Shown here: one piece after another, positions 38,748 to 54,323 of the stretch
Numbering within the stretch: the stretch's first letter is position 1
Layout of the letters: each line of letters begins with the position of its first letter
Assembly (NCBI RefSeq): GCF_000242255.2
Contig: NC_017033.1
Location: 3,111,110 to 3,175,109, forward strand
DNA length: 64,000 nucleotides
Direction of reading: 5' to 3'
Source of the DNA: Frateuria aurantia DSM 6220
GTDB taxonomy: Bacteria; Pseudomonadota; Gammaproteobacteria; Xanthomonadales; Rhodanobacteraceae
Translations under genes and position numbers: made by a program
Notes under the pieces: model-generated
The model's input: the letters and a program-made list of their open reading frames with translations, nothing else
What the model was told of the DNA's origin: nothing
The model's database searches: none

Positions 38748-38918
38748 TGCCTTGGAAAGCGATGCATTGATGGCAGGTCAACCAAACCTTTGAGCATAAG
38801 CACATAAGATCAGGGATCTAACCTGCATCGGCCAAAGAAAGGTACAATACCGGATCGACATCCATGGACGTCTATACCTCCCAGCGTGGCGGAGGGTCCG
38901 CGAAAAAAGCTGATCACC

Positions 38919-40706
38919 ATGCCTGCACCCGTGTCTACTCCTGTCGCTACGGCAACCCTGCAGCAACTCGAGCACCTGCTCGAAGGTCTGGATGGTACCG
39001 CACTGCAATGGCTCTCTGGTTATATCGCCGGCATCGCCAGTCGCACCACGCTCTCCAAGCCGGAGTCCACTGACATCCGGACCGGGTTCTTGTCCCCGAT
39101 CACTGTGCTCTACGGCAGCCAGACCGGCAATGCCAAACGCGTAGCCGAGACCCTGACCCACCGTGCCGAACAGGCCGGCCTGTCGGTGAGACTGATCCGC
39201 GCCGACAATTATTCGCTGCGCGAGCTGAAGCAGGAGCGACTGCTGTACCTGGTGATCAGCACACAGGGTGAGGGAGATCCACCCGACGATGCCCGCGGGC
39301 TGCTCGAATTCATCGAGGGGCGCCGAGCTCCTCAACTCCCCGAACTGCGTTATGCGGTACTGGGCCTGGGTGATTCCAGCTACCCGGAATTCTGCGCCAT
39401 CGGTCGGCGCATGGATGAGCGTCTTGCCGCCTTGGGTGGGCATCGCCTGTTCCCCCGAGGTGATGCCGATGTCGATATCGAGACCGTCTCCCGGGGCTGG
39501 CTCGACCAGGCACTGGCTCACGCCGCAAAGGCCGCGGGCTCACCGTCGCCGGAAGTTCCTGCGAGAGTCGAGGTCGATCCCCTGCCGGGGGGGTATGGTC
39601 GGGACCGCCCCTTCATGGCGGAAGTACTGACAAACCAGGCCATCACTGGCCAGGGCAGCGACCGCGACATCCGCCACCTGGAACTCTCGCTGGCCGGCTC
39701 CGGACTCAGCTACGAACCCGGTGATGCGCTGGGGGTCTGGGCTACCCAGGACCCGGCTCTGGTCGACGCCGTGCTGGCGAGCACCGGTCTGGATCCGGAC
39801 GAGCCGGTCCGCATCGATGACACCACATTGCCCTTGCGCACCTGGCTGACCGAACGTCGGGAGCTGACCGTGCTGACCCGGCCCTTTCTGCAAGCCCATG
39901 CGAGCTTGAGCGGATCAGCCGAGCTGCGCGCAGTGCTGGAACCTTCCGCACGCGAGGCTTTCAGCGCCCTGATTGAAACACGGCAGTTGCTGGACATCCT
40001 GCTGGAACATCCGGCCCCCTGGTCTGCCGAGGCCTTGGTACGGCAACTGCGGCCGTTGGCCCCGCGCATGTATTCGATCGCCTCCAGCTACCAGGCGGTG
40101 GATGAGGAAGTCCACCTGACCGTAGCCCATGTTTATGATGAAACGGAGCGAGGCCCCCGCTGGGGCGTTGCCAGTCATCACCTGCAAAGGCTCGTCGAAG
40201 GAGCGAGCGCCTCGGTCTTTATCGAGGCCAACGACCGCTTTCGGCTGCCGGCCGATCCTGATCGGGACATCATCATGATCGGTCCTGGTACCGGAGTGGC
40301 TCCATTCAGGGCTTTTGTCCAGGAGCGCAGCCTGCAGCAAGGGCACGGCCGCAACTGGCTGATCTTCGGCAACCCGCATGCCTATACCGACTTCCTGTAC
40401 CAGCTGGAATGGCATGATGCATTGCGGGCCGGTCATCTGCATCGTCTGGATGTGGCTTTCTCCCGCGATCAGGATCACAAAGTTTATGTCCAGCACCGGC
40501 TGCGTGAGCAAGGTGCGAAGATATATGGGTGGCTGCTGGCAGGCGCCCATCTTTACGTCTGCGGCGATGCCATTCACATGGCCCGCGACGTGCACGAGAC
40601 TCTGATCGGCATTGCCAGAGAGCATGGCCATCGGTCGGATGCTGCGGCCCGGACCTGGATCGACGAGCTGCAGCAACAAGGCCGCTACCTCCGCGACGTC
40701 TATTGA
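38919..40706 (+). CDS. cysJ: Sulfite reductase (NADPH) flavoprotein
   Basis: About 595 residues. The N-terminal flavodoxin domain has the FMN loop [20 protein letters not shown] and [20 protein letters not shown]. The FAD/NADPH part has [20 protein letters not shown] (FAD), [20 protein letters not shown] (NADPH pyrophosphate) and the end [11 protein letters not shown]. It passes electrons from NADPH to the CysI sirohaem subunit. Start chosen at [11 protein letters not shown] (38919); an in-frame GTG at 38886 is possible. A TACAAT -10-like box lies at 38843-38848 with no matching -35, as expected for a CysB-activated promoter. First gene of cysJ-cysI-cysH. Confidence 0.94.
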
Positions 40707-40716
40707 GAGTGTTGTC

Positions 40717-42423
40717 ATGAGTGTCATCACCAGCAAGCCCACCGAATCGGTTGAAGAGATCAAAGCCCGCAGCCATTTCCTGCGCGGCACCCTGGTGGAG
40801 GGACTCGCCGACGAAACCACTGGATCGATCAGCGAAGATGACAACAAGATCCTGAAATTTCATGGCAGCTATCAGCAGGATGACCGGGATCTTCGCGAGC
40901 CACGGAGGCAGCAGAAACTGGAGCCGGCTTGGCAGTTCATGATCAGGGCCCGCATCGCCGGCGGCGTGGTAAGCCCGCAGCAATGGCTGGCCTTCGACGA
41001 GATCGCCACCACCTGGGCCAATCACAGTCTGCGCATCACCACCCGCCAGACCTTCCAGCTGCACGGTGTGATCAAGCGCCATCTGAAAAAGACGATGGCA
41101 GCCATCAACCAGGCCTTGATCAGCACGGTTGCGGCCTGTGGCGATGTCAATCGCAATGTGGTCAGCAGCGCAAATCCTGTGGAATCCTCGGCCCATCGGC
41201 TGGCACTGGAATGGGCCAGTCGGTTGTCGGAACACCTGAAGCCGAAGACCCGCGCCTATCACGAGATCTGGCTGGACGGCGAACCGGTCGTCGGCGGCGA
41301 GCCCGAGCAGGAACCCCTGTATGGCCCCACTTACCTGCCGCGCAAATTCAAGATCGGCATCGCCATTCCCCCTACCAATGATGTCGACGTCTTCGCCCAG
41401 GATCTGGGCCTGATCGCCATCATCGAGGAAGGGCGGCTTCAGGGCTTCAACGTCGCCGTTGGCGGCGGCATGGGGACCACCCACGGCGACGCCAGCACCT
41501 ATCCGCGATTGGCCAGCATCATCGGCTTTGTCCGTCCCGATCAGCTGCTGCGGCTTGCCGAGGCCGTGATCGAGGTGCAGCGCGATTTCGGCAATCGCCA
41601 GGTCCGCAAGCATGCCCGCCTGAAATACACCATTGATCACCGTGGACTGGAGTGGTTCGTACACGAGGTGGAGCAGCGCCTGGGAGCTGCATTGACAGCA
41701 TCCCGCCCTTGGCATTTCGAACACAATGGCGATCGCTTTGGCTGGTTGCAGGGCGATGACGGCCGCTGGCATCTGACCCTGCGAACCGAAGCCGGGCGAA
41801 TCGCCGATACCGAGGCTCGGCCCTGGCTGACAGGGTTGCGGGAAATCGCCCGGATTCACCAGGGCGACTTCCGGATGACCTGCAACCAGAACCTGATCAT
41901 CGCCAATGTGCCGGCCGATCAACGGGCAAGCATCGACCGGCTGGTCGAGCAGTTCGGCCTGACCGGCTACGCCCGGCAAAGCGGCCTGCGTCGCAACAGT
42001 GTCGCCTGCGTGGCCTTGCCGACCTGCGCCTTGGCGATGGCCGAGAGCGAACGCTATCTGCCGCTGCTGTTGCCTCGCCTGGAAGCCCTGCTGGACAAGC
42101 ACGGCCTGACCGATGCGCCCATCGTATTCCGCCTGTCCGGCTGCCCCAATGGCTGCTCACGCCCGTATCTGGGAGAAATCGCGCTGGTGGGACGCGGTCC
42201 CGGCCGTTACGACCTGCGTCTGGGGGCCGACTTCCAGGGGCTGCGCCTGAATCGCCTGTTCCGCGAAAATATCGCCGAACCGGACATTCTGGCCGAGCTG
42301 GACGTGCTGCTGGCCCGGTATGCCCGGGAACGGCATGAGGCTGAATATTTCGGTGACTTCCTGCTGCGGCAGGAGCTGCTGCCCGAAGCCGTACATGTCC
42401 TGAACGTGGTCGAATACGCATGA
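40717..42423 (+). CDS. cysI: Sulfite reductase haemoprotein subunit
   Basis: 568 residues. The two Cys pairs that bind the 4Fe-4S cluster and sirohaem are visible as [14 protein letters not shown] and [20 protein letters not shown]. Sulfite-binding arginines lie in [13 protein letters not shown] and [14 protein letters not shown]. The enzyme reduces sulfite to sulfide with six electrons from CysJ. The ATG at 40717 is ten bases after cysJ, with GAGAG upstream, and the 3' end overlaps cysH by four bases (ATGA). Its sirohaem would be made by the nearby CysG. Confidence 0.95.
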
Positions 42424-43148
42424 ACGCTCCGGATATCTCGGCAGAACAAGCTCTGGCCGACCCCGGAGCACGGGTCGCACTGAACCAGTGGCTGGCTGCT
42501 CAGTCCGCCGAGGCGCGGGTCGGCTGGGCACTGCAGCACCTGCCCGGACCGCAGGTCTTGTCCTCCAGCTTCGGCGCGCAGTCCGCCGTAAGCCTGCATC
42601 TGCTGACCCGGCTGCAACCAGGCATCCCGGTAATTCTTATCGATACCGGCTATCTGTTTCCGGAAACCTATCGATTCATCGACCAGCTGACCGAGCGGCT
42701 GCGCCTGAACCTCGTTGTCGGCCGCCCCCTGCTGAGCCCGGCCTGGCTGGAAGCCCGACATGGCCGGCTGTGGGAACAGGGCGTGGCCGGCATCGAGCAT
42801 TACAACCGGATCGTCAAGGTCGAGCCGATGCTGCGCATGCTTGAAGGCCTCGATGTCCGCAGCTGGTACGCCGGTCTGCGCCGCAGCCAGTCGGAAAGCC
42901 GCGCCGAGCGGCAATATCTGGAGCACAGTCATGGGCGCTGGAAGGTCCATCCTCTGCTGGACTGGAGCGATCGCGACATCGGCCTGTATCTGAAGACCCA
43001 TGATCTGCCTTATCACCCCCTGTGGGAGCAAGGCTATGTTTCGATCGGTGACTCGCACACCAGCGCACGCCTGGAACCCGGCATGCGCGAGGAAGATACC
43101 CGTTTCTTCGGATTGAAACGCGAATGCGGACTGCATCTGGACGTCTGA
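42420..43148 (+). CDS. cysH: Phosphoadenylyl-sulfate (PAPS) reductase
   Basis: 242 residues. The PP-loop-like [20 protein letters not shown], the [20 protein letters not shown] segment, [20 protein letters not shown], and the C-terminal RECGLH motif with the catalytic Cys (about residue 237) identify CysH. The extra cysteine pairs of APS reductases (CC...CxxC) are absent, so PAPS rather than APS should be the substrate. This agrees with the APS kinase encoded by the next gene. It reduces PAPS to sulfite with thioredoxin. It starts within the cysI stop (ATGA). Confidence 0.93.
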
Positions 43149-43194
43149 TGCTCCGCCATGCCATTACGTCCGTACCACCGTTGACCAGGACACC

Positions 43195-44928
43195 ATGAAC
43201 GCATCTCTTGCCGCATCACCCTCCGCTCTGATCGCGCCTCACGGCGGCCATCTCCGCGAACTGTATCTGCCGCTGGAAGCCGCCGAAGCCTTGAAGAAAC
43301 GGGCCGCGCAGCTTCCGCAGTGGACGCTTTCCGAACGGCAGCTGTGCGATCTGGAACTGCTGCTCAATGGTGGCTTCTCGCCACTGACCGGCTTTCTGGG
43401 CGAGGAGGACTACCGCAGCGTCGTTGATCATCTGCGGCTGGCCGACGGCACGCTGTGGCCGATGCCGATCACCTTGGACGTCCCTGAAACCCTTGCCGCC
43501 CAGCTGCTGCTCGGCGGAGAGCTGAGCCTGAACGACACCCAGGGCACACCCCTGGCCGTGCTGGAAATCAGCGACATCTATCGCCCTGACCGTGAGCACG
43601 AGGCACGACAGGTGTTCGGCAGTACCGACCGACTGCATCCCGGCGTGGCCGAGCTGCTGGACCGCAACCATCCGGTCAACCTCGGCGGCCGCCTGCTCGG
43701 CATCCAGCTGCCGGCACATTATGATTTCGTGCCTCTGCGCCGCAGCCCGCGGCAATTGCGCGAATGGTTCGCCGGCCAGGGCTGGGACCGTATCGTCGCC
43801 TTCCAGACCCGCAACCCCATGCACCGCGCCCATCGCGAACTGACCCTGCGCGCGGCCGAAAAAGTCGGTGCCCGCCTGCTGATCCAGCCGGTGGTCGGCC
43901 GGACCAAGCCCGGCGACATCGACCATTACACCCGGGTCCGCTGCTACCAGGCCCTGCTGCCGCATTATCCCGAAGGTCAGGCCGCGCTGTCGCTGCTGCC
44001 GCTGGCGATGCGGATGGGTGGCCCGCGCGAGGCGCTGTGGCATGCCCTGATCCGCCAGAATTTCGGCGCCAGCCATTTCATTGTGGGCCGTGACCATGCC
44101 GGCCCGGGCAAGAACTCGCAGGGGCAGCCATTCTATGGCCCCTTCGAGGCCCATGAACTGATCGCCCGCTACCAGCACGAGCTGGGCATCGAGGTGGTGA
44201 CCTTCCCTGCCATGGTCTATGCCGCCAATCGCGATGCCTACCTGCCCGCCCCCGAGGTGACGGCCGAAGATGAAGTCCGCGACATCTCGGGTACCGAGCT
44301 GCGCCGACGACTTCATCAAGGCGAAGACATCCCGGCCTGGTTCACCTTTCCCGATGTGGTCCGGATCCTGCGCGAGCGTCATCCGGCCGGTGCGCGCCCT
44401 GGCTTCACCCTGTTTTTCACCGGTCTGTCGGGCTCCGGAAAATCCACGCTGGCCCAGGCCGTGGTCGCCCATCTGCTTGAAACCGGCAGTCGCGCCATCA
44501 CCGTGCTGGACGGCGATGAGGTCCGACTGCATCTGTCCAAGGGGCTGGGCTTTTCGCGGGAAGATCGCGATACGAACATCGCCCGCATCGGTTATGTCGC
44601 CAGCGAAGTGGTACGCCATGGCGGCATCGCGATATGCGCACCGATCGCGCCGTATGCCGAAGCCCGAGCCCAGGCCAGGGCCTTGGTCGAGACCCATGGC
44701 CGCTTCGTGGAGATCCATGTCGCCACCCCGTTGGAGGTATGCGAGCAGCGCGACCGCAAGGGCCTGTATGCCAAGGCCCGGGCCGGCAAACTGAGCGGCT
44801 TCACCGGCATCGACGATCCCTATGAAATTCCGGCCAGCCCTGAATTGCGGATTGATGCCAGTCAGGAGTCCGCACTGGATGCCGCACACCGCATCGTCAC
44901 CTGGCTGCGGGCCGAACAACTGCTGTAG
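43195..44928 (+). CDS. Fused ATP sulfurylase/APS kinase
   Basis: 577 residues. The first 395 or so form a Sat-type (not CysDN-type) ATP sulfurylase: FSPLTGFLGEEDY, IVAFQTRNPMHRAHRELTLR (about 200-219, the ATP-binding QxRN and HxxH), VVGRTKPGDIDHY, FIVGRDHAGPGKNS, and ISGTELRRRLHQGEDIPAWF. From about 405 a complete APS kinase follows, with P-loop LFFTGLSGSGKSTLAQAVVA, LDGDEVRLHLSKGLGFSRED, and CEQRDRKGLYAKARAGKLSG. One polypeptide thus makes PAPS from sulfate and ATP. It follows cysH by 46 bases in the same direction. The fused architecture is known in fungi and some bacteria, but differs from the CysDN/NC arrangement common in this order. Confidence 0.92.
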   Translation: MNASLAASPSALIAPHGGHLRELYLPLEAAEALKKRAAQLPQWTLSERQLCDLELLLNGGFSPLTGFLGEEDYRSVVDHLRLADGTLWPMPITLDVPETLAAQLLLGGELSLNDTQGTPLAVLEISDIYRPDREHEARQVFGSTDRLHPGVAELLDRNHPVNLGGRLLGIQLPAHYDFVPLRRSPRQLREWFAGQGWDRIVAFQTRNPMHRAHRELTLRAAEKVGARLLIQPVVGRTKPGDIDHYTRVRCYQALLPHYPEGQAALSLLPLAMRMGGPREALWHALIRQNFGASHFIVGRDHAGPGKNSQGQPFYGPFEAHELIARYQHELGIEVVTFPAMVYAANRDAYLPAPEVTAEDEVRDISGTELRRRLHQGEDIPAWFTFPDVVRILRERHPAGARPGFTLFFTGLSGSGKSTLAQAVVAHLLETGSRAITVLDGDEVRLHLSKGLGFSREDRDTNIARIGYVASEVVRHGGIAICAPIAPYAEARAQARALVETHGRFVEIHVATPLEVCEQRDRKGLYAKARAGKLSGFTGIDDPYEIPASPELRIDASQESALDAAHRIVTWLRAEQLL

Positions 44929-45062: not shown

Positions 45063-46064
45063 TCAGGCTGCCTGAGTGGCGCTGTGCAGCCAGGGAGCCC
45101 GCTGCGACCAGCGCGGCGGTTCGGGCCAGATTTCCGCTTCGTGCCCTGCCAGGGCGCGTTGCAGATCGGCCACGCCGATCTGCGGCGCGATCAGATTGAC
45201 GAGTCTGGCCGCATAGTCCCGCAGCACCCGATCGCGCTGCAGCACCAGCCAGGTGATGCATTCGGGAAACAGTCCGTCGGCATTGAGCACTTTCAGCTCC
45301 TTGCCGTCTTGCGGGTTCAGACCGATTTCGGCGAGAACACCCACACCCATGCCCGCCTGCACATAGGTCTTGATCAGATCGGCCTCGCCCGAGGTGCAGG
45401 CGATCCGTGGCTGCAGCCCCTGGGCGGCAAAGGCCCGCTGCAGCGAGGACTCGTCCCGCAGCGAGGACTCGTAGCTGACCAGCGGCCACTCGGCCAAGGT
45501 CGCCAGATCCACTGGCCGGTTCAAGCGCGCCAGCTCATGCTCGAAGGGCACCACGACCGCCCGCTGCCAGCGGAACAGGGGAACCGCGATATCCCCCTGG
45601 GGACGCGAGCCACTGGTACTGACGATCGCCAGATCCACCTCGCCGGACTCGATCAGGCTGAGAACCCTGGGTTCACCGTGGGGACGGATATGAATATTGA
45701 GGTCGGGATAATCATGCATGAGACGGGCAATGGCCGGCGGCAGCACGAAACGGGCCTGGGTGTGGGTGGTGGCCAGCGACAGTTCGCCCTGCACCTCACC
45801 CCGCAGATTGGCGGCCAAGGCCCGGATATTGCGTGCTTCGTCCAGCATCACCCGGGCACGCTCGATGACCTGGGCTCCCGCCGGGCTGATCGCATCGAGA
45901 CTTCGACCGCGACGGCTGAAGATCTGGAAGCCCAGCTCGCCTTCGATCTGCTTCAGCTGCTTGCTCAAGCCCGGCTGGGTGGCATGCACCAGCTCGGCGG
46001 CAAGCGTGATATTGAGGCCGGCGTCGGCGATTGCGACGATATAGCGTAGTTGCGTAAGTGTCAT
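45063..46064 (-). CDS. cysB: CysB-type LysR regulator of sulfur assimilation
   Basis: 333 residues. The HTH begins LTQLRYIVAIADAGLNITLA with AELVHATQPGLSKQLKQIEG, typical of the CysB/Cbl branch (KxLKxLE replaced by KQLKQIE). GFQIFSRRGRSLDAISPAGA and QARFVLPPAIARLMHDYP in the cofactor domain also match CysB. CysB activates cys genes and senses O- or N-acetylserine. Start chosen at MTLTQLRYIVA (46064). It is convergent with the sulfurylase gene and divergent from cysG, so it sits in the middle of its probable regulon. The 134 bases to its left contain no gene. Cbl (sulfonate regulator) is the alternative. Confidence 0.88.
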   Translation of the reverse strand: MTLTQLRYIVAIADAGLNITLAAELVHATQPGLSKQLKQIEGELGFQIFSRRGRSLDAISPAGAQVIERARVMLDEARNIRALAANLRGEVQGELSLATTHTQARFVLPPAIARLMHDYPDLNIHIRPHGEPRVLSLIESGEVDLAIVSTSGSRPQGDIAVPLFRWQRAVVVPFEHELARLNRPVDLATLAEWPLVSYESSLRDESSLQRAFAAQGLQPRIACTSGEADLIKTYVQAGMGVGVLAEIGLNPQDGKELKVLNADGLFPECITWLVLQRDRVLRDYAARLVNLIAPQIGVADLQRALAGHEAEIWPEPPRWSQRAPWLHSATQAA

Positions 46065-46283
46065 GGCTAACCCCAGGAAGTCCAAGATGATCCGGATAAC
46101 CGGCCAAAGATCATGCGGGCTTCAACAACAGGGCAGATTCCGGAACACGACGCTTCTCCTGACGCTATGACAACGGGTTATGGCTTGATGCACCATAGCA
46201 AACAAGGCATTGGACGTCTAGCCACACAATTGTCGTCCCTCAGGCTGATGCCATTTGGGGCCACTGCGCACACGTTTGATCAT

Positions 46284-46312
46284 TTGTCGTCGGTCTTCCG
46301 TGAATTTATAGT
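46284..46312 (+). promoter_or_regulatory. Candidate promoter for cysG, possibly leaderless
   Basis: TTGTCG (46284-46289), exactly 17 bases, then TATAGT (46307-46312). Transcription would start near 46319, only a few bases before the preferred cysG ATG at 46323, and no Shine-Dalgarno precedes that ATG. This suggests a leaderless or near-leaderless message. If translation starts elsewhere the argument fails. Confidence 0.45.
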
Positions 46313-46322
46313 CGATACTTTG

Positions 46323-47789
46323 ATGCGATGGTACGCCACCTTGTCTCTTTATCCATTATTCGTCGATCTGCGGGGGCGCGCCGTGCTGGTCATCGGCGGC
46401 GGTCCCGTGGCCGAGCGCAAGATCGCCGCCCTGCTTCGGTCCGAAGCCCAGATCAGTGTGGTGGCCGAGACCCTGACCGAACCACTGCAGGAGCTGGTTG
46501 CCCGGCAGGCGTTGCAGTGGCGGCAGGATCCATTCCAACCCGACATGCTGGATACCGTCTGGCTGACCATTGCCGCCACCGACGATGCGATCCTGAATGC
46601 CACTGTGGCCAAGGCAGGCGAGGCACGCCAACGCTGGGTCAACGTCGTCGATGCTCCCGGCCTGTCCAGTGTCCAGATCCCCTCGGTGATCCATCGCGCG
46701 CCCTTGCAGGTCGCGATTTCGACCCATGGTGCGGCGCCGGTGCTGGCCCGACGCCTGCGCGAGCGTATCGAGAGCCTGCTGCCGGAGTCGATCGGCCCGC
46801 TGGTGGCACTGGCGCAACGTTTCCGTGGACAGATCCGGCAACGTTTCCCCGATCTGGGATCACGCCGGGCCTTCTACGACTGGCTGCATGATGGCCCGGT
46901 CGGCCAGGCACTGGCCCGCCAACAGGAGGACGAGGCCGTGCAGCGGCTTGAATCGGCCCTGGCACAGCCCGCCCGTCCGCTGGAGCGTACTGGCCACGTC
47001 ACCCTGGTCGGAGCCGGCCCCGGTGATCCCGGTCTGTTGACCCTGGCGGCACTGCGGGCCATGAACGAGGCCGACGTGATCCTGCATGACGCACTGGTCA
47101 GCCCGGCCGTGCTTGATCTGGCCCGCCGCGACGCGAGCCTGATTCGGGTCGGCAAGCGCGGCGGCGGTATCCATACGCCCCAGACCGAAATCCACCGGCA
47201 ATTGCTGGAGCATGCCCGCGCCGGCCGTCATGTGGTCCGGCTGAAAGGGGGCGATCCATTTATTTTCGGCCGCGGCGGCGAGGAAATCGAGATTCTGCGC
47301 GAGCATGGCATTGCCTATCGGATCGTGCCGGGCATCACTGCCGCGCTGGCCTGTGCCGCCTATGCCGGCATCTCGCTCAGCCATCGCCAACACGCCCGCT
47401 CGATCCAGCTGATCACCGCCCACAGCCGGGAGGCCGTGCCCAGTCTGGACTGGCTGTCCCTGGTGCAACCGGAACAGACCCTGGCGATCTACATGGGCGT
47501 CGCGGTGCTGGAAACCGTGCAGCAGACCTTGCTGCGGCACGGCATGCCGGCATCGACCCCGTTCGCACTGATCGAGAATGGCAGCCTGCCTTCCCAGCGC
47601 AGCCTGGCTGGCGAGCTGGGCCAACTGAGCCAGCTGGCACTCGAGCACCATATCGCGGCCCCGGCCCTGCTGGTCATTGGCGAAGTGGCCGCGATGGCGC
47701 ACCGGCAACACTGGTTCGGCCGGCACCTGGATGCACGCCCTGCCGGAACGTCCCTGCCGTCACGGCTTCCCGCCCCGCTGGGCACCTGA
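46323..47789 (+). CDS. cysG: Sirohaem synthase (multifunctional CysG)
   Basis: 488 residues. The N-terminal dehydrogenase/ferrochelatase half has LFVDLRGRAVLVIGGGPVAE and STHGAAPVLARRLRERIESL. The C-terminal uroporphyrinogen-III methyltransferase half has VTLVGAGPGDPGLLTLAALR, VGKRGGGIHTPQ, VRLKGGDPFIFGRGGEE and VPGITAALACAAYAGISLSH. It converts uroporphyrinogen III to sirohaem, the cofactor of CysI. Start at MRWYATLSLYPLF (46323), matching the family N terminus; upstream codons in the same frame look non-coding. It is divergent from cysB, which probably activates it. Confidence 0.93.
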   Translation: MRWYATLSLYPLFVDLRGRAVLVIGGGPVAERKIAALLRSEAQISVVAETLTEPLQELVARQALQWRQDPFQPDMLDTVWLTIAATDDAILNATVAKAGEARQRWVNVVDAPGLSSVQIPSVIHRAPLQVAISTHGAAPVLARRLRERIESLLPESIGPLVALAQRFRGQIRQRFPDLGSRRAFYDWLHDGPVGQALARQQEDEAVQRLESALAQPARPLERTGHVTLVGAGPGDPGLLTLAALRAMNEADVILHDALVSPAVLDLARRDASLIRVGKRGGGIHTPQTEIHRQLLEHARAGRHVVRLKGGDPFIFGRGGEEIEILREHGIAYRIVPGITAALACAAYAGISLSHRQHARSIQLITAHSREAVPSLDWLSLVQPEQTLAIYMGVAVLETVQQTLLRHGMPASTPFALIENGSLPSQRSLAGELGQLSQLALEHHIAAPALLVIGEVAAMAHRQHWFGRHLDARPAGTSLPSRLPAPLGT

Positions 47790-47825: not shown

Positions 47826-50111
47826 TCACTGCAGATGCCAACTGACCCCGACATAAGCGGTCAGGCCGTCACCGGGCTGGAACCGGGGGGCGTCCCGCCC
47901 CTGGTCGTCATAGCCCGGCGTGACGATGGGGGCATAATGGCGATTGCCCAGGTTGTGCAGATCAAGAAAGGCCGACCACGGTCCTCGCGCCGGCTGGTAG
48001 CCCATCTCGGCACCGAAAATCGCATAGCCGGGGGCAAATAGACTGTTGGCATAATCAGCCGGCATGCGTGAAGCCAGCTGGGTGCTGGCCCCCAGATAGA
48101 AACCGCCGGCAAACAAGTAGCGCAGACGGGCCTGATAGAAGTGGCGCGGCAGGCCGGGAAGCTGATGATGACCGAAACGGATGTCGCCACGATAGTGGAA
48201 ATCACTCCAGGTATAGGCCTGCACCAGTTGCAGACGCCCCCGCGGCCCTTCCGCCAGCCATGACTGCAAGCCGGCCTCGATGCCTTGATGCAGGGTCGGC
48301 GCAGCATTGTATTCGGCGTCGATCTCGGTCTGGGTGGCTGTGGCCGCCTGCAGCTGCACCGAAAGCAGCTCATGCCGGATGGCCGAACGATAGATATCCG
48401 CGGACCAGGAGCCGATCACCGAGTCCCCGCGGGCGCCCAGCTCGACCGTGCTGGCCCGCTGGTTCTGCAGGTCCAGGCCGCGTATCGCCCAGCCCGTGGC
48501 CGGCCCGTGGCTGAAAGCCGGCGGCGGACTGAGAATGGCCCAGCTGTCGGGGGTCTGCACCGAGCGGCTGAAGTTGCCATACAGCTGGATGCCCGTCGGC
48601 AGGTCCCAGGTCAGGCCGAAGCGGGGGGCCCAGGCCAGCCGCTCGCGCCGATAGGGCTGATTGACGAAGGGCCGGACCACTGCAGTACGTCGGATCGAGT
48701 ACAGGCCGGATAAGCCGGCGATGAGATGCAGATCGGGAATCCACTCGACATTCTCGCTCAGATGCAGGGTATGGTCGCCACCACCATAGGTGGAACGCCG
48801 GACCGGGCTGCCTGTTGGCCAGCCCGCGCCGGCACCGGCAGCGATCCGCACCGTACTGTCTTCCGATGAACTCAGGTTGCGGGTTGACAGGATCCCCGCC
48901 TGCAGATCGTGCGGCCGTCCGAAGATCTCGCCATGATGACGCCACGACAGCACTGCGCTGACGTCACTGAAATGCCAGATATCACGGCTGTAGATATTGG
49001 CTGCCGAGTCGATCGGATATCGGTGCCAGACCCAGCCGATATCCAGCTCGGAGTCCTGATCCAGGTGCAGGGTGGTCTTGCTGCCCAGCCAGATCGACCC
49101 GGGCTGGTGCCGGTCGGCACCCCATAGCCGGTTCAGGGGATTGGCCTGCCTGGGATGCGAGCGGATCTGGGCCAGCGTCAGATCGCCCGGCACGCCATTG
49201 AAGGTATTGCGCCAGCGCAGATACAGGCGGGTCTCGAGCAGAGCATTGAAGCGATAGCCCAGATTGGCGACCAGACCGCTACTGCGGCCACGCGTCAGGG
49301 CCTGGTAGCCGGTCCGTTCCGAATGGGTCAGGCTGAGGTAGTAATCCCAGTGCGCATCATGGCCGCCGACCGCGACCTGCTGCTTGCCATAGCCATAACT
49401 GCCGCCCTCCAGCCGGATCGCCAGCGGCGGCGCGTGCCGGCCATCAGTGGTGACATAGTTGATCGTGCCCCCCAGGGTCAGTGTGCCCAGATCGAAGCCG
49501 TTGGCGCCACGCAGAATTTCGGTGTGATCCAGCCCCAGCGGCTCGAAGAGTTCGTAAGGTGTCCCACCCGGCCCGGTGACCGGCAGGCCATCAAACAGCA
49601 TCAGCAGACCCGAGCGGAAATAGCCGGTCCCCCGGTTGATCGATGATCCCCGGATCGATATCTTCAGCCCATCGTTGCCGCCGGCCGACTGGGCATAGAC
49701 GCCCGGCTGGTAAGCCAGAATATCGGCACTGGTAGCCACTTTCGCTGCCAGCACCGATGACTGGTCGATCACCGCCACCCCGCCGGGCACCTGCTCAAGC
49801 TCGGCCCGGGCCTTGGCACTGACCGATGCGGCACCGGCCGACACGACCACTGCGGACAGCAGTCTGGATGGCCTGGATGCCTTCTTTCCGGCATCGTCGG
49901 AGGACGCCTCCGCCGATTCGGACGGTGGCTCGCGACGAACCTGCTCCATCGCCACGGCCGGCCCTGCCATGCTGCCGGATGCCAGTGCAAGGCAGATCAC
50001 GGATACGGAACGCCACGGCTCCCCGCGATGGCGGAACAGGCCTCGCTCCAACCTTCCGGCCCCTGCAGCTGCCGTCAGTCCTCCGGTCACGGATCCAGCC
50101 TCCCTTCTCAT
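47826..50111 (-). CDS. TonB-dependent outer-membrane receptor, probably for a sulfur compound
   Basis: 761 residues. A long signal region (basic start, then VSVICLALASGSMAGPAVA) leads to a plug domain (VPGGVAVIDQSSVLAAKVAT, IRGSSINRGTGYFRSGLLML, GLDHTEILRGANGFDLGTLT, LGGTINYVTTDG) and a beta-barrel ending in aromatic/hydrophobic residues (LTAYVGVSWHLQ). It would import a substrate across the outer membrane using TonB energy. Siderophore receptors share this architecture. The flanking sulfur genes (cysG on one side, divergent sfnB-like genes on the other) argue for an organosulfur ligand, as with the sulfate-ester receptor SftP of Pseudomonas. No binding residues prove the ligand. It is divergent from the sfnB-like genes across 294 bases, which hold no gene I can support. 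Confidence 0.85.
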   Translation of the reverse strand: MRREAGSVTGGLTAAAGAGRLERGLFRHRGEPWRSVSVICLALASGSMAGPAVAMEQVRREPPSESAEASSDDAGKKASRPSRLLSAVVVSAGAASVSAKARAELEQVPGGVAVIDQSSVLAAKVATSADILAYQPGVYAQSAGGNDGLKISIRGSSINRGTGYFRSGLLMLFDGLPVTGPGGTPYELFEPLGLDHTEILRGANGFDLGTLTLGGTINYVTTDGRHAPPLAIRLEGGSYGYGKQQVAVGGHDAHWDYYLSLTHSERTGYQALTRGRSSGLVANLGYRFNALLETRLYLRWRNTFNGVPGDLTLAQIRSHPRQANPLNRLWGADRHQPGSIWLGSKTTLHLDQDSELDIGWVWHRYPIDSAANIYSRDIWHFSDVSAVLSWRHHGEIFGRPHDLQAGILSTRNLSSSEDSTVRIAAGAGAGWPTGSPVRRSTYGGGDHTLHLSENVEWIPDLHLIAGLSGLYSIRRTAVVRPFVNQPYRRERLAWAPRFGLTWDLPTGIQLYGNFSRSVQTPDSWAILSPPPAFSHGPATGWAIRGLDLQNQRASTVELGARGDSVIGSWSADIYRSAIRHELLSVQLQAATATQTEIDAEYNAAPTLHQGIEAGLQSWLAEGPRGRLQLVQAYTWSDFHYRGDIRFGHHQLPGLPRHFYQARLRYLFAGGFYLGASTQLASRMPADYANSLFAPGYAIFGAEMGYQPARGPWSAFLDLHNLGNRHYAPIVTPGYDDQGRDAPRFQPGDGLTAYVGVSWHLQ

Positions 50112-50405
50112 TCCGACCTCCCATCCATGGCCATTCCCCTCGAACGCGGATACAGAGCCTCATGCCCCGACCGCCGCAAGCACGTGTTTACCGAAGTCGA
50201 CACCTTCCTGGAAACTACCGGCAGGCATATGGACATGCTCCACGGCACCGCAGATGCGGACAAGAGAGGTGCTTGAAAAAATGTCACTCAAGGACATCCA
50301 TACATCCATCCATATGCACATGACCCATCGTTCTCATGCATTTGAATGAAAAGCGGATAGTCTGGCTTCGATGCTGATGATCCGGCCTGCACCAGGAGTC
50401 TTGCG

Positions 50406-51602
50406 ATGAGTCATCAACCCACTTCCGCTGCACACATCATCAGCAATGACGAGGAGGCACTGGCCAGTGCGCAAGCCCTGGCCGCCGTCTTTGCCCCCGA
50501 TGCCGGTGAACGCGATGCGCGACGCCACCTTCCCCAGGCGGATATCGAGCGCTTTTCCGACAGCGGGCTGTGGGCGATCACGGTGCCACAGGCCTTCGGC
50601 GGGGCGGGCGTCTCCTTTCGCACCCTTGCTGAAGTCGTCCGTCGGATCTCGGTCGCCGATCCCTCGCTGGGACAGCTGCCGCAGAATCATTACGGCGTGA
50701 TCGATCTGCTGTTGCAGACCGGGACCCCGGAACAACAAGCCGATTATTTCGCCAAGGTGCTGCAAGGTCAGCGTTTCGGCAATGCCTTTTCAGAATCGGC
50801 CAGCGCTCATGCCGGCCGATTTGAAACCCGTATCCGCTTCCGACGGGATCACGTCGTGCTGGATGGCGAAAAGGCTTATGCCACCGGGGCCTTGTTCGCA
50901 CATATCGTACCGGTCTCGGCGGTGGACGAGGATGGCCGGATCTTCGTCGCCCTGGTCCCCAGGGATGCGCCCGGTCTGAGCGTGCTTGATACCTGGGATG
51001 GCTTCGGCCAGCGCATCACCGCCAGCGGCACGGCACGGATCGAAGCCGTCAAGGTCCCGCTGGAGGCCGTACTGCCGGCCTATCAGGCCTATGACCGGCC
51101 GACGGCCGACGGCCCGGTATCACAGCTGATCCAGGCGGCCATCGATGCCGGCATCGCTGCCGCCGCCTTCCAGGACAGCCTGCGCCATGCACGCCAGGCC
51201 AGGCCCTGGATCGACAGCGGGCAGACCCACGGCCATGAGGACCTGTTCAGTCAGGCCATCATCGGGGATCTGAGCTGGCAGCTGCATGCGGCCGAAGCCC
51301 TGCTCGAAGAGGCGGCCGATGCCGTGGATATCGCCCAGGCCAGCCCCGGCATCGATACGGTTGCCCAGGCCTCGGCAGCGGTCGCCAAAGCCAAGATACT
51401 CACTACTGAAATCGCCCTGCTGGCCAGCAGCAAGCTGTTCGAGCTGGCAGGCACTCGCTCGGTCTCTGGACGTCATCATCTGGATCGGCATTGGCGCAAT
51501 GCACGAACCCATACCCTGCATGACCCCGTCCGCTGGAAATACCACCTGGTGGGCAACTATCGACTCAATCACGTGCCGCCACCACGTCATACCTGGAACT
51601 GA
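50406..51602 (+). CDS. SfnB/DszC-like flavin monooxygenase, copy 1
   Basis: 398 residues with the acyl-CoA dehydrogenase fold but SfnB/DszC-type signatures: SDSGLWAITVPQAFGGAGVS, LGQLPQNHYGVIDLLLQTGT, GEKAYATGALFAHIVPVSAV, and the C-terminal HLDRHWRNARTHTLHDPVRW. Proteins of this class use reduced FMN and oxygen on sulfur compounds (dibenzothiophene, dimethyl sulfone) rather than dehydrogenating acyl-CoA. It leads a three-gene run (two SfnB-like genes and an LLM monooxygenase) and is divergent from the TonB receptor. A sulfur-scavenging role is inferred from these neighbours. Confidence 0.82.
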   Translation: MSHQPTSAAHIISNDEEALASAQALAAVFAPDAGERDARRHLPQADIERFSDSGLWAITVPQAFGGAGVSFRTLAEVVRRISVADPSLGQLPQNHYGVIDLLLQTGTPEQQADYFAKVLQGQRFGNAFSESASAHAGRFETRIRFRRDHVVLDGEKAYATGALFAHIVPVSAVDEDGRIFVALVPRDAPGLSVLDTWDGFGQRITASGTARIEAVKVPLEAVLPAYQAYDRPTADGPVSQLIQAAIDAGIAAAAFQDSLRHARQARPWIDSGQTHGHEDLFSQAIIGDLSWQLHAAEALLEEAADAVDIAQASPGIDTVAQASAAVAKAKILTTEIALLASSKLFELAGTRSVSGRHHLDRHWRNARTHTLHDPVRWKYHLVGNYRLNHVPPPRHTWN

Positions 51603-51633
51603 ACCCTCGCCACCGCCTGCACCGGAGCTGCCG

Positions 51634-52911
51634 ATGACCGCCCCCCTGCCCACCCCGATCCCCTCTTCCCCGCAAGCACCGCAAGCACCGCAAGCACCGC
51701 AAGCACCGCAGCAACAAGCAGGCAGCGGCCCGGCCCATCGAATCCGCTCTGCCGCCGAAGCCCTCCAGATCGCGCGAGCGCTTGCCGGGGAACTGGGCCG
51801 GGAAGCTTCCGAGCGCGACCGGGACCGACGATTGCCCTGGGCTGAACTGGATGCGCTCAGCCGCAGCGGGCTGCTGGCCATCACCGTACCGAAGGCCGCA
51901 GGCGGCGCGGATGTCGACAGCGGCACCGTGGCCGAGGTGATCGCCATCCTGGCCGAGGCCGATGCCTCCATCGGACAGATTCCGCAAAACCATTTCTATC
52001 TGCTGGAAGCGCTGCGGGTGGATGGCAGCGAAGGCCAGCAGGCCCGCTACCATGCGCAGGTGCTGGCTGGTGCGCGCTTCGGCAACGCCCTGGCCGAGCT
52101 GGGCACGCCGACCGCGCTGGATATCCGTACCCGGATCCGGCCCCAGGCAGACGGCAGCTGGCTGCTTGACGGGCACAAGGCCTATTCGACCGGGGCGCTG
52201 TTCGCCCATTGGATCGGCGTCCAGGCACTCGATGAACAGGATCGCCCATGGCTGGCCATCATTCCGCATGATGCTGCGGGACTGGAACTGGTAGATGACT
52301 GGCTCGGCTTCGGCCAGCGCACCACCGGCAGCGGCACCACCCATCTGGATCAGGTCCGGGTCGAGGCCGATGCACTGATTCCGCATTACCGGGGCTTTGA
52401 GCGACCGACGCGGATCGGCCCCTTCGGCCAGCTTGTGCATGCCGGCATCGATCTGGGCATTGCCCGGGCCGCGCTGGCCGATACCTTGCAGTTTGTCCGT
52501 GAGCACTCACGGCCCTGGAAGGACGCCGGCGTGACGCGCGCCCGTGACGACCCCTATGTCATCGCCCGCATCGGCGGGTTGGATACCGCGCTCAGCGCCG
52601 CCCAGGCGCTGCTGCGACGCGCCGGGCGGCAAGTCGATGCGATCCGGGAGGCCGCATCTGCCGAGGATCTGGCCAGCGCTTCGGTGGCCGTCGCCGAGGC
52701 CAAGATCGCCACCAGCCGGATCGCGCTGGAGGCCAGCCAGAGCCTGTTCGAACTGGCAGGCAGCCAATCCACCTTGCAGGCGTACAACCTGGATCGGCAC
52801 TGGCGCAATGCCCGCACCCATACCCTGCACGATCCTCTGCGCTGGAAATATCGCCTGATCGGCGACTACCTGCTGAACCACAGCCTGCCCCCGCGGCACG
52901 GCTCGGTCTGA
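51634..52911 (+). CDS. SfnB/DszC-like flavin monooxygenase, copy 2
   Basis: 425 residues, clearly paralogous to copy 1: LSRSGLLAITVPKAAGGADV, IGQIPQNHFYLLEALRVDGS, GHKAYSTGALFAHWIGVQAL, LDRHWRNARTHTLHDPLRWK. It differs by a Gln/Ala/Pro-rich N-terminal extension (QAPQAPQAPQAPQQQ) encoded by a 9-bp tandem repeat, and by a different C terminus. Start at ATG 51634 with GGAG eight bases upstream; the open frame extends further, but that part lies within copy 1 in another frame. It follows copy 1 by 31 bases. Two diverged copies may act on different substrates or form a heteromer. Expected to need reduced FMN from a reductase not in the window. Confidence 0.82.
   Translation: MTAPLPTPIPSSPQAPQAPQAPQAPQQQAGSGPAHRIRSAAEALQIARALAGELGREASERDRDRRLPWAELDALSRSGLLAITVPKAAGGADVDSGTVAEVIAILAEADASIGQIPQNHFYLLEALRVDGSEGQQARYHAQVLAGARFGNALAELGTPTALDIRTRIRPQADGSWLLDGHKAYSTGALFAHWIGVQALDEQDRPWLAIIPHDAAGLELVDDWLGFGQRTTGSGTTHLDQVRVEADALIPHYRGFERPTRIGPFGQLVHAGIDLGIARAALADTLQFVREHSRPWKDAGVTRARDDPYVIARIGGLDTALSAAQALLRRAGRQVDAIREAASAEDLASASVAVAEAKIATSRIALEASQSLFELAGSQSTLQAYNLDRHWRNARTHTLHDPLRWKYRLIGDYLLNHSLPPRHGSV
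51672..51707 (+). repeat. Four perfect copies of a 9-bp repeat inside the second sfnB-like gene
   Basis: GCAAGCACC occurs four times without change, giving four Gln-Ala-Pro units near the N terminus. Slippage would add or remove three residues at a time and never break the frame, so the linker length may vary between strains. Confidence 0.9.
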
Positions 52912-52934
52912 TCGCCAACGCCTCCGGAATCACG

Positions 52935-54323
52935 ATGACCCGCCTCTTGCGCCTCAATGCCTTTGCAATGAACTGCGTCGGACACCAGTCACCCGGGCTG
53001 TGGACCCATCCCGCAGACCGGTCATCGCATTACAAGGATCTGGACTACTGGATCGAACTGGCCAGATTGCTGGAACGAGGCCTGTTCGACGGGCTGTTTA
53101 TCGCCGATGTGCTCGGCGTATATGACGTCTATCAGGATTCATCCGCCGCCGCCCTGCGGCAGGCGGCGCAGATTCCGGTCAACGATCCGCTGCAGCTGAT
53201 TCCGCCGATGGCATGGGTCACGGAACACTTGGGCTTTGGCCTGACGGCATCGATCTCCTTCGAGCACCCGTTCCCCTTCGCCCGCCGACTCTCGACCCTG
53301 GATCACCTGACCCGGGGTCGCGTCGGCTGGAATATCGTCACGTCCTATCTGGAAAGCGGCGCCCGCAATCTGGGTCTGCGCCAGCAGGTCGAGCATGACA
53401 CCCGCTATGACTATGCCGATGAATACCTGGAAGTCTGCTACAAGCTGCTGGAAGGCAGCTGGGAAGAAGGCGCCGTGCAGCGTGATCGCGAGCGCCGGGT
53501 GTTCACCGACCCCGCCAGGGTCCACCCGATCCGCCATCAAGGCCGCTGGTTCCAGGTGCCCGGTATCCATCTCAGCGAACCCTCGATCCAGCGTACGCCG
53601 GTGTTGTATCAGGCCGGCACCTCCCGCCGCGGCCGCCGGTTCGCCGGCCAACATGCTGAATGCGTGTTTCTGGCCAGCCCCTCCAAGGCGGCGCTGGCCC
53701 GCCAGATCAGGAGCCTGCGCGAGGAGGCCGTGCGCGCCGGACGCGATCCATCCGCGCTGCTCTTCTTCAACCTGCTGACTCTGGTGATTGCCGACACCGA
53801 TGCCCAGGCAAAGGCCAAACTCGACGACTATCGCCGCCATGCCAGCCGGGAGGGCGCACTGGCCCTGATGTCAGGCTGGACCGGCATCGATCTGGCCATC
53901 TATCCTCCCGATCAGCCGTTGCAAAAGGTCAAGACCCAGGCGATCCAATCGGCCGTGGAAGCCTTTTCCAGTAGCGACCCCGAAACCGAATGGACCGTGG
54001 ATGCTCTGGCCCACTGGGCCGGCATCGGTGGTCTGGGACCGTTGCTGGTCGGCAGCCCCGCGACCGTAGCCGACCAATTGCAAGTCTGGCAGGAGGCCAC
54101 CGGCGTGGACGGCTTCAATCTGGCCTATGCCATCGCTCCACGCAGCTTCGAGGACATCGTCGAACTGCTGGTGCCCGAACTGCAGCGCCGCGGCATCTAC
54201 AAGACCGCTTATGCCCCGGGCAGTCTGCGCCACAAGCTGTTCGGCCAGGGTGACCGCTTGCAGTCACCTCATCCGGCGGCCCATTGGCGGGAAGTCATTC
54301 CACAACGGACCGCAACCGCCTGA
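52935..54323 (+). CDS. LLM-class flavin monooxygenase of the NtaA/SnaA/DszA group
   Basis: 462 residues. The luciferase-like fold is shown by LLRLNAFAMNCVGHQSPGLW, ARLLERGLFDGLFIADVLGV, PFPFARRLSTLDHLTRGRVG, WNIVTSYLESGARNLGL, and QRTPVLYQAGTSRRGRRFAG. The NtaA/SnaA/DszA group are FMNH2-dependent two-component oxygenases that attack carbon-sulfur or carbon-nitrogen bonds. DszA converts dibenzothiophene sulfone to a sulfinate, and related enzymes act on alkyl sulfones and nitrilotriacetate. With the preceding SfnB/DszC-like genes, 23 bases upstream, it suggests oxidative release of sulfite, which CysI could then reduce. The substrate is inferred only. Confidence 0.82.
   Translation: MTRLLRLNAFAMNCVGHQSPGLWTHPADRSSHYKDLDYWIELARLLERGLFDGLFIADVLGVYDVYQDSSAAALRQAAQIPVNDPLQLIPPMAWVTEHLGFGLTASISFEHPFPFARRLSTLDHLTRGRVGWNIVTSYLESGARNLGLRQQVEHDTRYDYADEYLEVCYKLLEGSWEEGAVQRDRERRVFTDPARVHPIRHQGRWFQVPGIHLSEPSIQRTPVLYQAGTSRRGRRFAGQHAECVFLASPSKAALARQIRSLREEAVRAGRDPSALLFFNLLTLVIADTDAQAKAKLDDYRRHASREGALALMSGWTGIDLAIYPPDQPLQKVKTQAIQSAVEAFSSSDPETEWTVDALAHWAGIGGLGPLLVGSPATVADQLQVWQEATGVDGFNLAYAIAPRSFEDIVELLVPELQRRGIYKTAYAPGSLRHKLFGQGDRLQSPHPAAHWREVIPQRTATA

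Follow-up and report, generated by a model that had tools for sequence, protein, structure and literature searches.

A TonB-dependent receptor gene beside a probable desulfurization trio in Frateuria aurantia: a candidate outer-membrane gate for organic sulfur

Frateuria aurantia DSM 6220 carries, in the stretch of 64,000 nucleotides analysed here (the window; C1:3111110-3175109 of a single-contig genome of 3,603,458 bases), a gene for a TonB-dependent receptor that is divergent from three oxygenase genes: two of the SfnB family, in tandem, and one of the NtaA/DmoA family. This arrangement had been put forward in a sequence-only reading of the window, and all four genes are indeed present. We consider it likely that the receptor, the enzyme trio and completing genes elsewhere in the genome form a sulfur-scavenging module. 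Under sulfate limitation the trio very probably serves to take sulfur out of organic compounds, and the receptor, by its gene context, is a good candidate for a gate importing sulfur-containing molecules. The enzymes form a cassette of a known kind; what varies is the receptor that accompanies them. Family-level identities, gene order, the conserved association and the completing enzymes are shown by sequence, whereas substrates, reactions, the cargo of the receptor and control by starvation are inferred.

Both enzymes of the tandem pair pass the SfnB cut-off (TIGR04022, 430.9 bits), SfnB1 with 575.3 bits and SfnB2, read from position 51583, with 586 bits. The nearest solved proteins of SfnB1 are TdsC, MsuC and DszC; those of SfnB2 are TdsC (expectation value, E, 1.5e-58), DszC (1.5e-55) and the methanesulfinate monooxygenase MsuC (1.6e-55). 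Histidines of the QNH and LHDP stretches, presumably catalytic as in DszC, occur in both proteins. The scores for DszC itself (187.9 bits for SfnB1, 229.7 for SfnB2) lie far below the cut-off of 850 bits (NF043015).

The third enzyme is a bacterial-luciferase-like monooxygenase (LLM) that reaches 545.4 bits against the NtaA/DmoA cut-off of 279.7 (TIGR03860) and 62 bits against the SfnG cut-off of 382.95 (TIGR04021). Its nearest solved relative is DmoA (PDB 6ak1), matched over nearly its full length at E 6.7e-162, followed by LadA (2.3e-143) and DszA (3.5e-72); hexachlorobenzene dehalogenase is also among the solved relatives. Of the type first assigned to it, DszA/NtaA, the NtaA half stands and the DszA half gives way to DmoA. 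Residues C14, H17 and Y63, to which a role in LadA is ascribed, are invariant across nine aligned LLM sequences including this one. Proteins of proteobacterial organosulfur clusters are closer to the window enzyme (60-69%) than DmoA is, and its reaction is a prediction. DmoA oxidises dimethyl sulfide, with methanethiol and formaldehyde as products; PMC13352529 instead gives the product as dimethyl sulfoxide. Thiophene desulfurization of the DszA/DszC type was considered for the trio and rejected, as the DszC cut-off is not reached and DmoA is closer than DszA.

The genes of the trio are separated by 31 bp (SfnB1-SfnB2) and 23 bp (SfnB2-LLM gene), a spacing that is operon-like. The mechanical open reading frame (ORF) of SfnB2 begins at 51286, and an ATG at 51634 is preceded by GGAG. 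Near this start, a perfect 9-bp tandem repeat of 4.6 copies (51670-51710) encodes a Q-A-P repeat in an N-terminal extension; slippage by whole units would keep the frame.

In a tree of 22 SfnB-family proteins (two trimmed N-terminally for over-long mechanical starts), the window pair falls in a group of ten rows (96/98) with one Gluconacetobacter SfnB and those of Acinetobacter, Burkholderia, Phyllobacterium and Rhizobium. None of the SfnB-like proteins taken from the other receptor clusters belongs to this group; nearly all of them form another (100/100), which includes the SfnB-like protein of the second organosulfur locus described below. LLM relatives of about 55-69% identity occur inside organosulfur clusters. 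On plasmids, 319 records hold an LLM relative at E 1e-120, 227 of them at 60-80% identity, and in each of the seven that were opened it lies among organosulfur-type genes (SsuD, SfnG, SfnB-like, a sulfonate-binding protein, an MsuE-like reductase or a related major facilitator superfamily (MFS) transporter); these seven were hand-picked and are thus not a rate, and others were met only via SfnB or receptor searches. Plasmid records with an SfnB2 relative number 385, three of them opened. A strict class-wide search for SfnB2 found it in F. aurantia only among 321 genomes (243 genera), a thin draw that says little.

The sequence-only reading knew of no described system with this exact composition; its enzyme part is of a known kind, with runs of the order SfnB-SfnB-LLM elsewhere. 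On a Burkholderia stagnalis plasmid, such a run is surrounded by sugar-type ATP-binding cassette (ABC) genes; SfnBa is about 57-58% identical to SfnB1 and SfnBb 58% to SfnB2, and the LLM gene is, in this record, divided between two reading frames (71% over 254 residues and 57% over 207; L064:10174-11640). The latter gene is missing from the distributed gene table. A search of the F. aurantia genome for the substrate-binding protein of this cluster gave no match, an empty answer that is uninformative for a search of this kind. An Acinetobacter baumannii record shares the window's order, with SfnB (39-41%), SfnB (52% to SfnB2) and LLM (48%); downstream of them come ABC genes and a protein resembling MetQ, whose 179 bits do not reach the family cut-off of 229. 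One A. baumannii record (L102, NZ_CP104448.1; 4.09 Mb, 37 annotated features) is filed as a plasmid and looks like a chromosome.

In Acinetobacter baylyi ADP1, the tandem dms1-dms2 (ACIAD0427/0428) likewise encodes monooxygenases of the acyl-CoA-dehydrogenase fold. According to the available part of the source, Dms1, Dms2 and Dms3, all of this fold, oxidise dimethyl sulfide to the sulfoxide and the sulfone, MsuD (of the SfnG type), MsuC and SsuD complete the route to sulfite, a single MsuE feeds all such enzymes, and growth on dimethyl sulfide instead of sulfate strongly induces all six genes that were tested (PMC13352529). A TonB receptor and the name SfnB do not occur in the same part. For the LLM-type (group C) enzymes of that study, no oxidation of dimethyl sulfide was detectable, a result that does not favour a DmoA-like first step for the window LLM enzyme. 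Family membership, similar gene runs and, by analogy, the published Dms enzymes together lend good support to the proposed desulfurization of organosulfur compounds by the trio. Where Acinetobacter dms-type cassettes have a local ABC importer, the window has a TonB receptor.

The set had been called incomplete, lacking an inner-membrane transporter and a flavin reductase. This is true of the window only, because both, and further completing genes, are encoded at other loci. A second organosulfur locus at C1:262-274 kb (L001:10120 to L002:2320), about 0.7 Mb from the window if the contig is circular, encodes an SfnB-like protein, an LLM, an Opp/Nik-like ABC importer, a sigma-54-activator-like protein, MsuC, SsuD/MsuD and MsuE. 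The importer lies at about C1:265-270 kb, and the best matches of its binding protein and permeases are below cut-offs. MsuC matches PDB 6u76 at E 1.5e-199, SsuD/MsuD and MsuE exceed their family cut-offs, and the gene for SfnG (587 bits, cut-off 383) lies apart from them, at about C1:2.024 Mb. The genome holds four SfnB-family genes at E 1e-60 or better. It thus has relatives of the Pseudomonas sfn/msu genes (SfnG, MsuC, MsuD, MsuE, SfnR), including the sigma-54-activator-like gene; the difference is that they lie outside the window, and that SfnB1 and SfnB2 are only 31-35% identical to the genome's own MsuC.

The receptor has the two domains of its class, a plug (51.7 bits against 23.9; E 1.4e-13) and a TonB barrel (97.5 against 27; E 2.1e-27). 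It scores 80.9 bits for the TonB siderophore receptors (TIGR01783, cut-off 223.5) and 84.3 bits for PqqU (NF041535, cut-off 1200), and it is far below the NCBIfam cut-offs for heme and B12 receptors. A siderophore or pyrroloquinoline quinone receptor was rejected on these scores. PqqU/YncD are its best-named matches in NCBIfam and the PDB, and the solved structures match only partially. An AlphaFold model, built from 8 sequences, has a mean predicted local distance difference test score (pLDDT) of 45.

We followed the receptor through four surveys: its order (250 genomes), named genomes, plasmids and 150 Acetobacteraceae genomes. Most stretches were read as mechanical ORFs, whose start points are unsafe, and of the eight distant receptor genomes, that of F. 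aurantia and G023 were opened. In the Acetobacteraceae, receptor relatives occur at nine places in eight genomes, and eight of these places are 0.07-6.4 kb from an SfnB-family gene; such genes are found in 23 of the 150 genomes at E 1e-50 and above cut-off in 8. Random placement would link at least eight of nine with a probability of about 8e-18 if shared descent is ignored; the true weight is smaller, because the genomes are related. At the ninth place (G708), the receptor has as neighbours instead a permease, an ABC ATPase and an LLM (33%).

The arrangements vary. The receptor of G705 is divergent from an SfnB-like gene, with an Opp/Nik-like ABC set and an LLM, and G644 has a single run receptor-SfnB-like-LLM-ABC. 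Runs with SsuD, LLM and SfnB-like genes and an ABC set nearby are found in G621 and G568; runs with SsuD, a flavin adenine dinucleotide (FAD) oxidoreductase and an MFS transporter in G658, G722, G595 and Komagataeibacter; and runs with SfnB, a binding protein and a permease in Gluconacetobacter and Gluconobacter. The named genomes gave ten loci, two in Pseudomonas (47%) and eight in Acetobacteraceae (36-38%). In seven of the latter, the neighbours of the receptor include an NMT1-like binding protein and SfnB-family genes, whole or in part; a permease whose best matches, below cut-offs, include TauC and SsuC is present in six of these seven. The remaining locus is a contig of 7 kb. A receptor relative occurs in 17 plasmid records, four of which were opened. 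Two Komagataeibacter saccharivorans plasmids carry one run of SfnB-like, LLM, ssuD, FAD oxidoreductase, MFS transporter, flavin reductase and receptor genes, and on a Novosphingobium plasmid no organosulfur genes stand among the annotated neighbours of the receptor (33%). Methylocalor combines the receptor with an SfnB-like protein (274 bits, below cut-off), sfnG (517 bits, above), an LLM ORF of the window type and tonB-exbB-exbD. The link between receptor and organosulfur genes has outlasted much gene reshuffling. With the neighbourhood search that the sequence-only reading had called for, the idea of organosulfur uptake gains strong support in three lineages, and this support is one of gene context. 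Two organosulfur clusters also contain an annotated 3,4-dihydroxy-2-butanone-4-phosphate synthase, an enzyme of riboflavin supply (L061:16999-17322, L105:10761-11444).

A tree of 43 receptors (42 distinct), rooted at the midpoint, gives the same picture. The window receptor belongs to a set of 21 rows (97/96) from F. aurantia, Methylocalor and acetic-acid bacteria, 19 of which, its own included, are SfnB-linked; the two unlinked rows are L053, at the edge of a 7-kb contig, and L074, with an LLM, a permease and an ABC ATPase and no SfnB. All 15 rows of the sister set (98/97), from Pseudomonas and a genus represented by 13 genomes, are unlinked, as are seven more distant rows. The rows are not independent: L073 is the same record as L050, L059 and L060 nearly duplicate each other, and so do several rows from Gluconacetobacter.

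It is possible, if somewhat doubtful, that the receptor imports a bulky organosulfur compound for the second locus (its SfnB-like protein, LLM and Opp/Nik-like ABC importer), with the trio not acting first. The receptors of G705 and G644 are linked to relatives of that locus (LLM 70 and 68%, Opp/Nik-like ABC) and to no window-type trio. In a six-frame scan of the window and four other stretches of the genome (2426 segments of at least 30 residues), the receptor profile found the window gene first (2e-285) and next a relic of 52 residues of a TonB-receptor plug (E 7.9e-4; L001:10166-10320), directly upstream of the second-locus SfnB-like gene. Since the relic sits where G644 has an intact receptor, the simplest reading is that the second locus once had a receptor of its own, and the window receptor may now serve both loci. 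Against an exclusive partnership with the second locus, LLM enzymes of the window type also occur in receptor clusters, in Methylocalor (62%), G621 and G568 (both 60%), with a 69% fragment in G595, so that both types of partner are found with the receptor; moreover, the divergent layout in the window suggests a control region common to receptor and trio.

Several observations weigh against assigning the receptor to organosulfur uptake at all. TonB-dependent receptors as a superfamily mostly serve siderophores, heme and vitamins. The closest relatives by identity (45-47%; two Pseudomonas and the 13 genomes of one other genus) are not beside organosulfur genes: the two Pseudomonas genomes have SfnB-family genes, none within the stretch around the receptor, where LLM neighbours are also lacking, and three searched genomes of the other genus have no SfnB-family gene at E 1e-60. 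In the order survey, 20 of 250 genomes have a receptor relative at E 1e-40, and about 20 kb around the 19 outside F. aurantia hold no SfnB, LLM, Ssu/Msu or Sfn relatives and a single ABC ATPase match (L045); 13 of these receptors are those of the one genus, where in annotated L032 the receptor adjoins hut-type genes. The branch of the window receptor is long (0.94), which with a midpoint root makes its exact place less sure; measured along the tree, the rows closest to it belong to the unlinked sister set. Seven of the eight linked Acetobacteraceae places have an SfnB-family gene below cut-off (229-288 bits), not of the window type, and no receptor relative was found at E 1e-12 in the seven opened LLM plasmid stretches. 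Iron genes lie near some related clusters, FeoB in six Gluconacetobacter stretches of five genomes and FTR1 on two Komagataeibacter plasmids (examples are L050:12307-14151 and L060:481-1311). The substrates proven in A. baylyi would need no receptor, since molecules as small as dimethyl sulfide and its sulfoxide and sulfone can pass through porins. "Dms-like", said of the trio, refers to family and gene order.

These points would suit an ordinary dimethyl-sulfide/sulfone cassette that has a receptor for an iron chelate or another micronutrient as a chance neighbour, the more so as similar SfnB-SfnB-LLM runs elsewhere are accompanied by ABC genes. We nevertheless find this unlikely: Methylocalor and eight of the nine Acetobacteraceae places are organosulfur-linked in several arrangements, the siderophore cut-off is far off, and the best Fur-like site in the divergent gap (11/19) was equalled by 181 of 500 shuffles and was rejected. 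That the enzymes oxidise alkanes, sulfides or xenobiotics for the sake of carbon or for detoxification instead of sulfur acquisition, as LadA and hexachlorobenzene dehalogenase among the solved LLM relatives might suggest, is very improbable given the SfnB equivalog membership and relatives that neighbour ssuD, sfnG, MsuE-like or sulfonate-type ABC genes.

The Pseudomonas sister receptors may differ in cargo. They have a flavin reductase within 3-5 kb and a sensor kinase beside the receptor (L049, 12-19 kb; L057 similar), and in L049 a styrene-monooxygenase-like protein lies within 3-5 kb as well.

A gain of the module by horizontal transfer is suggested by the rarity of SfnB in the order, above cut-off in F. 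aurantia alone of 250 genomes (three others have weaker relatives, at E 1e-60), together with linked receptor relatives in another class and in Methylocalor. Base composition is uninformative here, with 63.8-68.1% G+C in the module genes and 64.3% in the window.

For the sulfur-scavenging module, we propose the following route. The receptor would bring an organosulfur compound, or a compound bearing one, across the outer membrane with energy from TonB. For the inner membrane, the most likely route is the Opp/Nik-like ABC importer of the second locus, which we propose because it is linked to the receptor group in Acetobacteraceae. SfnB1 and SfnB2, by their family and the example of Dms1-Dms2, would oxidise a thioether stepwise to sulfoxide and sulfone. 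The DmoA-type enzyme, together with SfnG, MsuC and MsuD/SsuD from the other loci, would then break C-S bonds to release sulfite, MsuE probably supplying reduced flavin mononucleotide (FMNH2) to all these oxygenases. The sulfite so produced would be reduced by CysJI.

Expression under sulfate starvation is to be expected, and the divergent layout suggests a common control region. Scans of the gap region for sigma-70, sigma-54, Fur and terminator signals gave none clearly beyond chance, which does not help the case. Among seven regions tried for sigma-54, the best scores were equalled by 8 of 300 shuffles upstream of SfnB1, where the candidate is an imperfect match 148-163 bases 5' of the start codon, and by 10 of 300 upstream of SfnG. 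Positions 50293-50304 hold a 12-mer that is found again, altered at one base, in front of the second sulfur locus, a weak lead; having been spotted by eye, it is post hoc evidence. Within two mismatches it has 7 matches in the window (5.3 expected), and within one mismatch 24 places genome-wide, 3 of them exact, against 14 for the reversed pattern. The third exact copy is just 5' of a gene that, judged by its translation, encodes a hydrolase; no connection with sulfur was apparent there. When the upstream regions of window and second locus were aligned locally, 16 of 500 mononucleotide shuffles scored as well.

The cys genes next door, to which the sequence-only reading had drawn attention, are there: cysG adjoins the receptor gene, and cysJ and cysI lie 5' of cysG (Table 1). 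This adjacency looks incidental. As cysG and the receptor gene converge tail to tail, 36 bp apart, the module lies outside the cys operon, and no relatives of the window cys proteins were found in the receptor stretches compared (L030-L061, L066-L074). A LysR-type gene in between is below cut-off both for its best family (PRK12680, 444 bits against 482) and for CysB (PRK12681, 269 against 436).

Table 1 The candidate organosulfur module and its neighbours in the window.
Feature	Position	Strand	Basis or size
TonB-dependent receptor, candidate organosulfur receptor	47826..50111	-	Pfam PF07715 plug and PF00593 barrel
Divergent intergenic region between receptor and trio	50112..50405		294 bp
SfnB1, acyl-CoA-dehydrogenase fold, probable FMNH2-dependent S-monooxygenase	50406..51602	+	TIGR04022
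SfnB2, predicted second S-monooxygenase of the tandem pair	51634..52911	+	TIGR04022
NtaA/DmoA-type LLM, FMNH2 monooxygenase, probably C-S cleaving	52935..54323	+	TIGR03860
cysG (siroheme synthase), convergent neighbour, serves sulfite reduction	46113..47789	+	Family search
CysB-like LysR, possible regulator (candidate)	45063..46085	-	Best NCBIfam match PRK12680, below cut-off
cysJ, cysI, cysH and sat/cysC-like gene	38886..44928	+	Translations read by eye, no family search

SftP, a TonB-type receptor, offers a parallel, its gene standing within an organosulfur cluster. The sulfate-ester cluster of Pseudomonas strain UW4 has the order atsACBR-sftR-atsK-sftP (PMC3596284), and SftP is placed in a table of receptors, grouped with those of the siderophore type (PMC3400609). 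By description, not by sequence, the two differ: SftP goes with sulfate esters and sulfatases, and the score of the window receptor for the siderophore subfamily falls far short of the cut-off. Apart from SftP, we found no TonB receptor in sulfone, sulfonate or organosulfur clusters among the literature matches listed, which mostly do not cover subscription papers; as far as the available parts of PMC12892962, PMC12581299 and PMC7760384 go, they describe sulfur genes without a TonB receptor of this sort.

We see about even chances that the window represents, beside a dms-like trio, a distinct and horizontally mobile group of TonB receptors for organosulfur compounds that porins do not admit because of their size or do not supply because of their dilution. 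Soil sulfur is for the most part organic (PMC3596284, PMC4267179), and descriptions of how sulfonates and sulfones are taken up usually concern the inner membrane. A receptor group travelling with sulfone and sulfonate oxygenases would imply substrates that need active transport through the outer membrane as well. If true, organic sulfur would have a gate in the outer membrane besides that for sulfate esters, and the cargo of TonB-dependent transport would no longer be confined to metals, vitamins and sugars; acetic-acid bacteria and F. aurantia would offer a short, testable list of genes.

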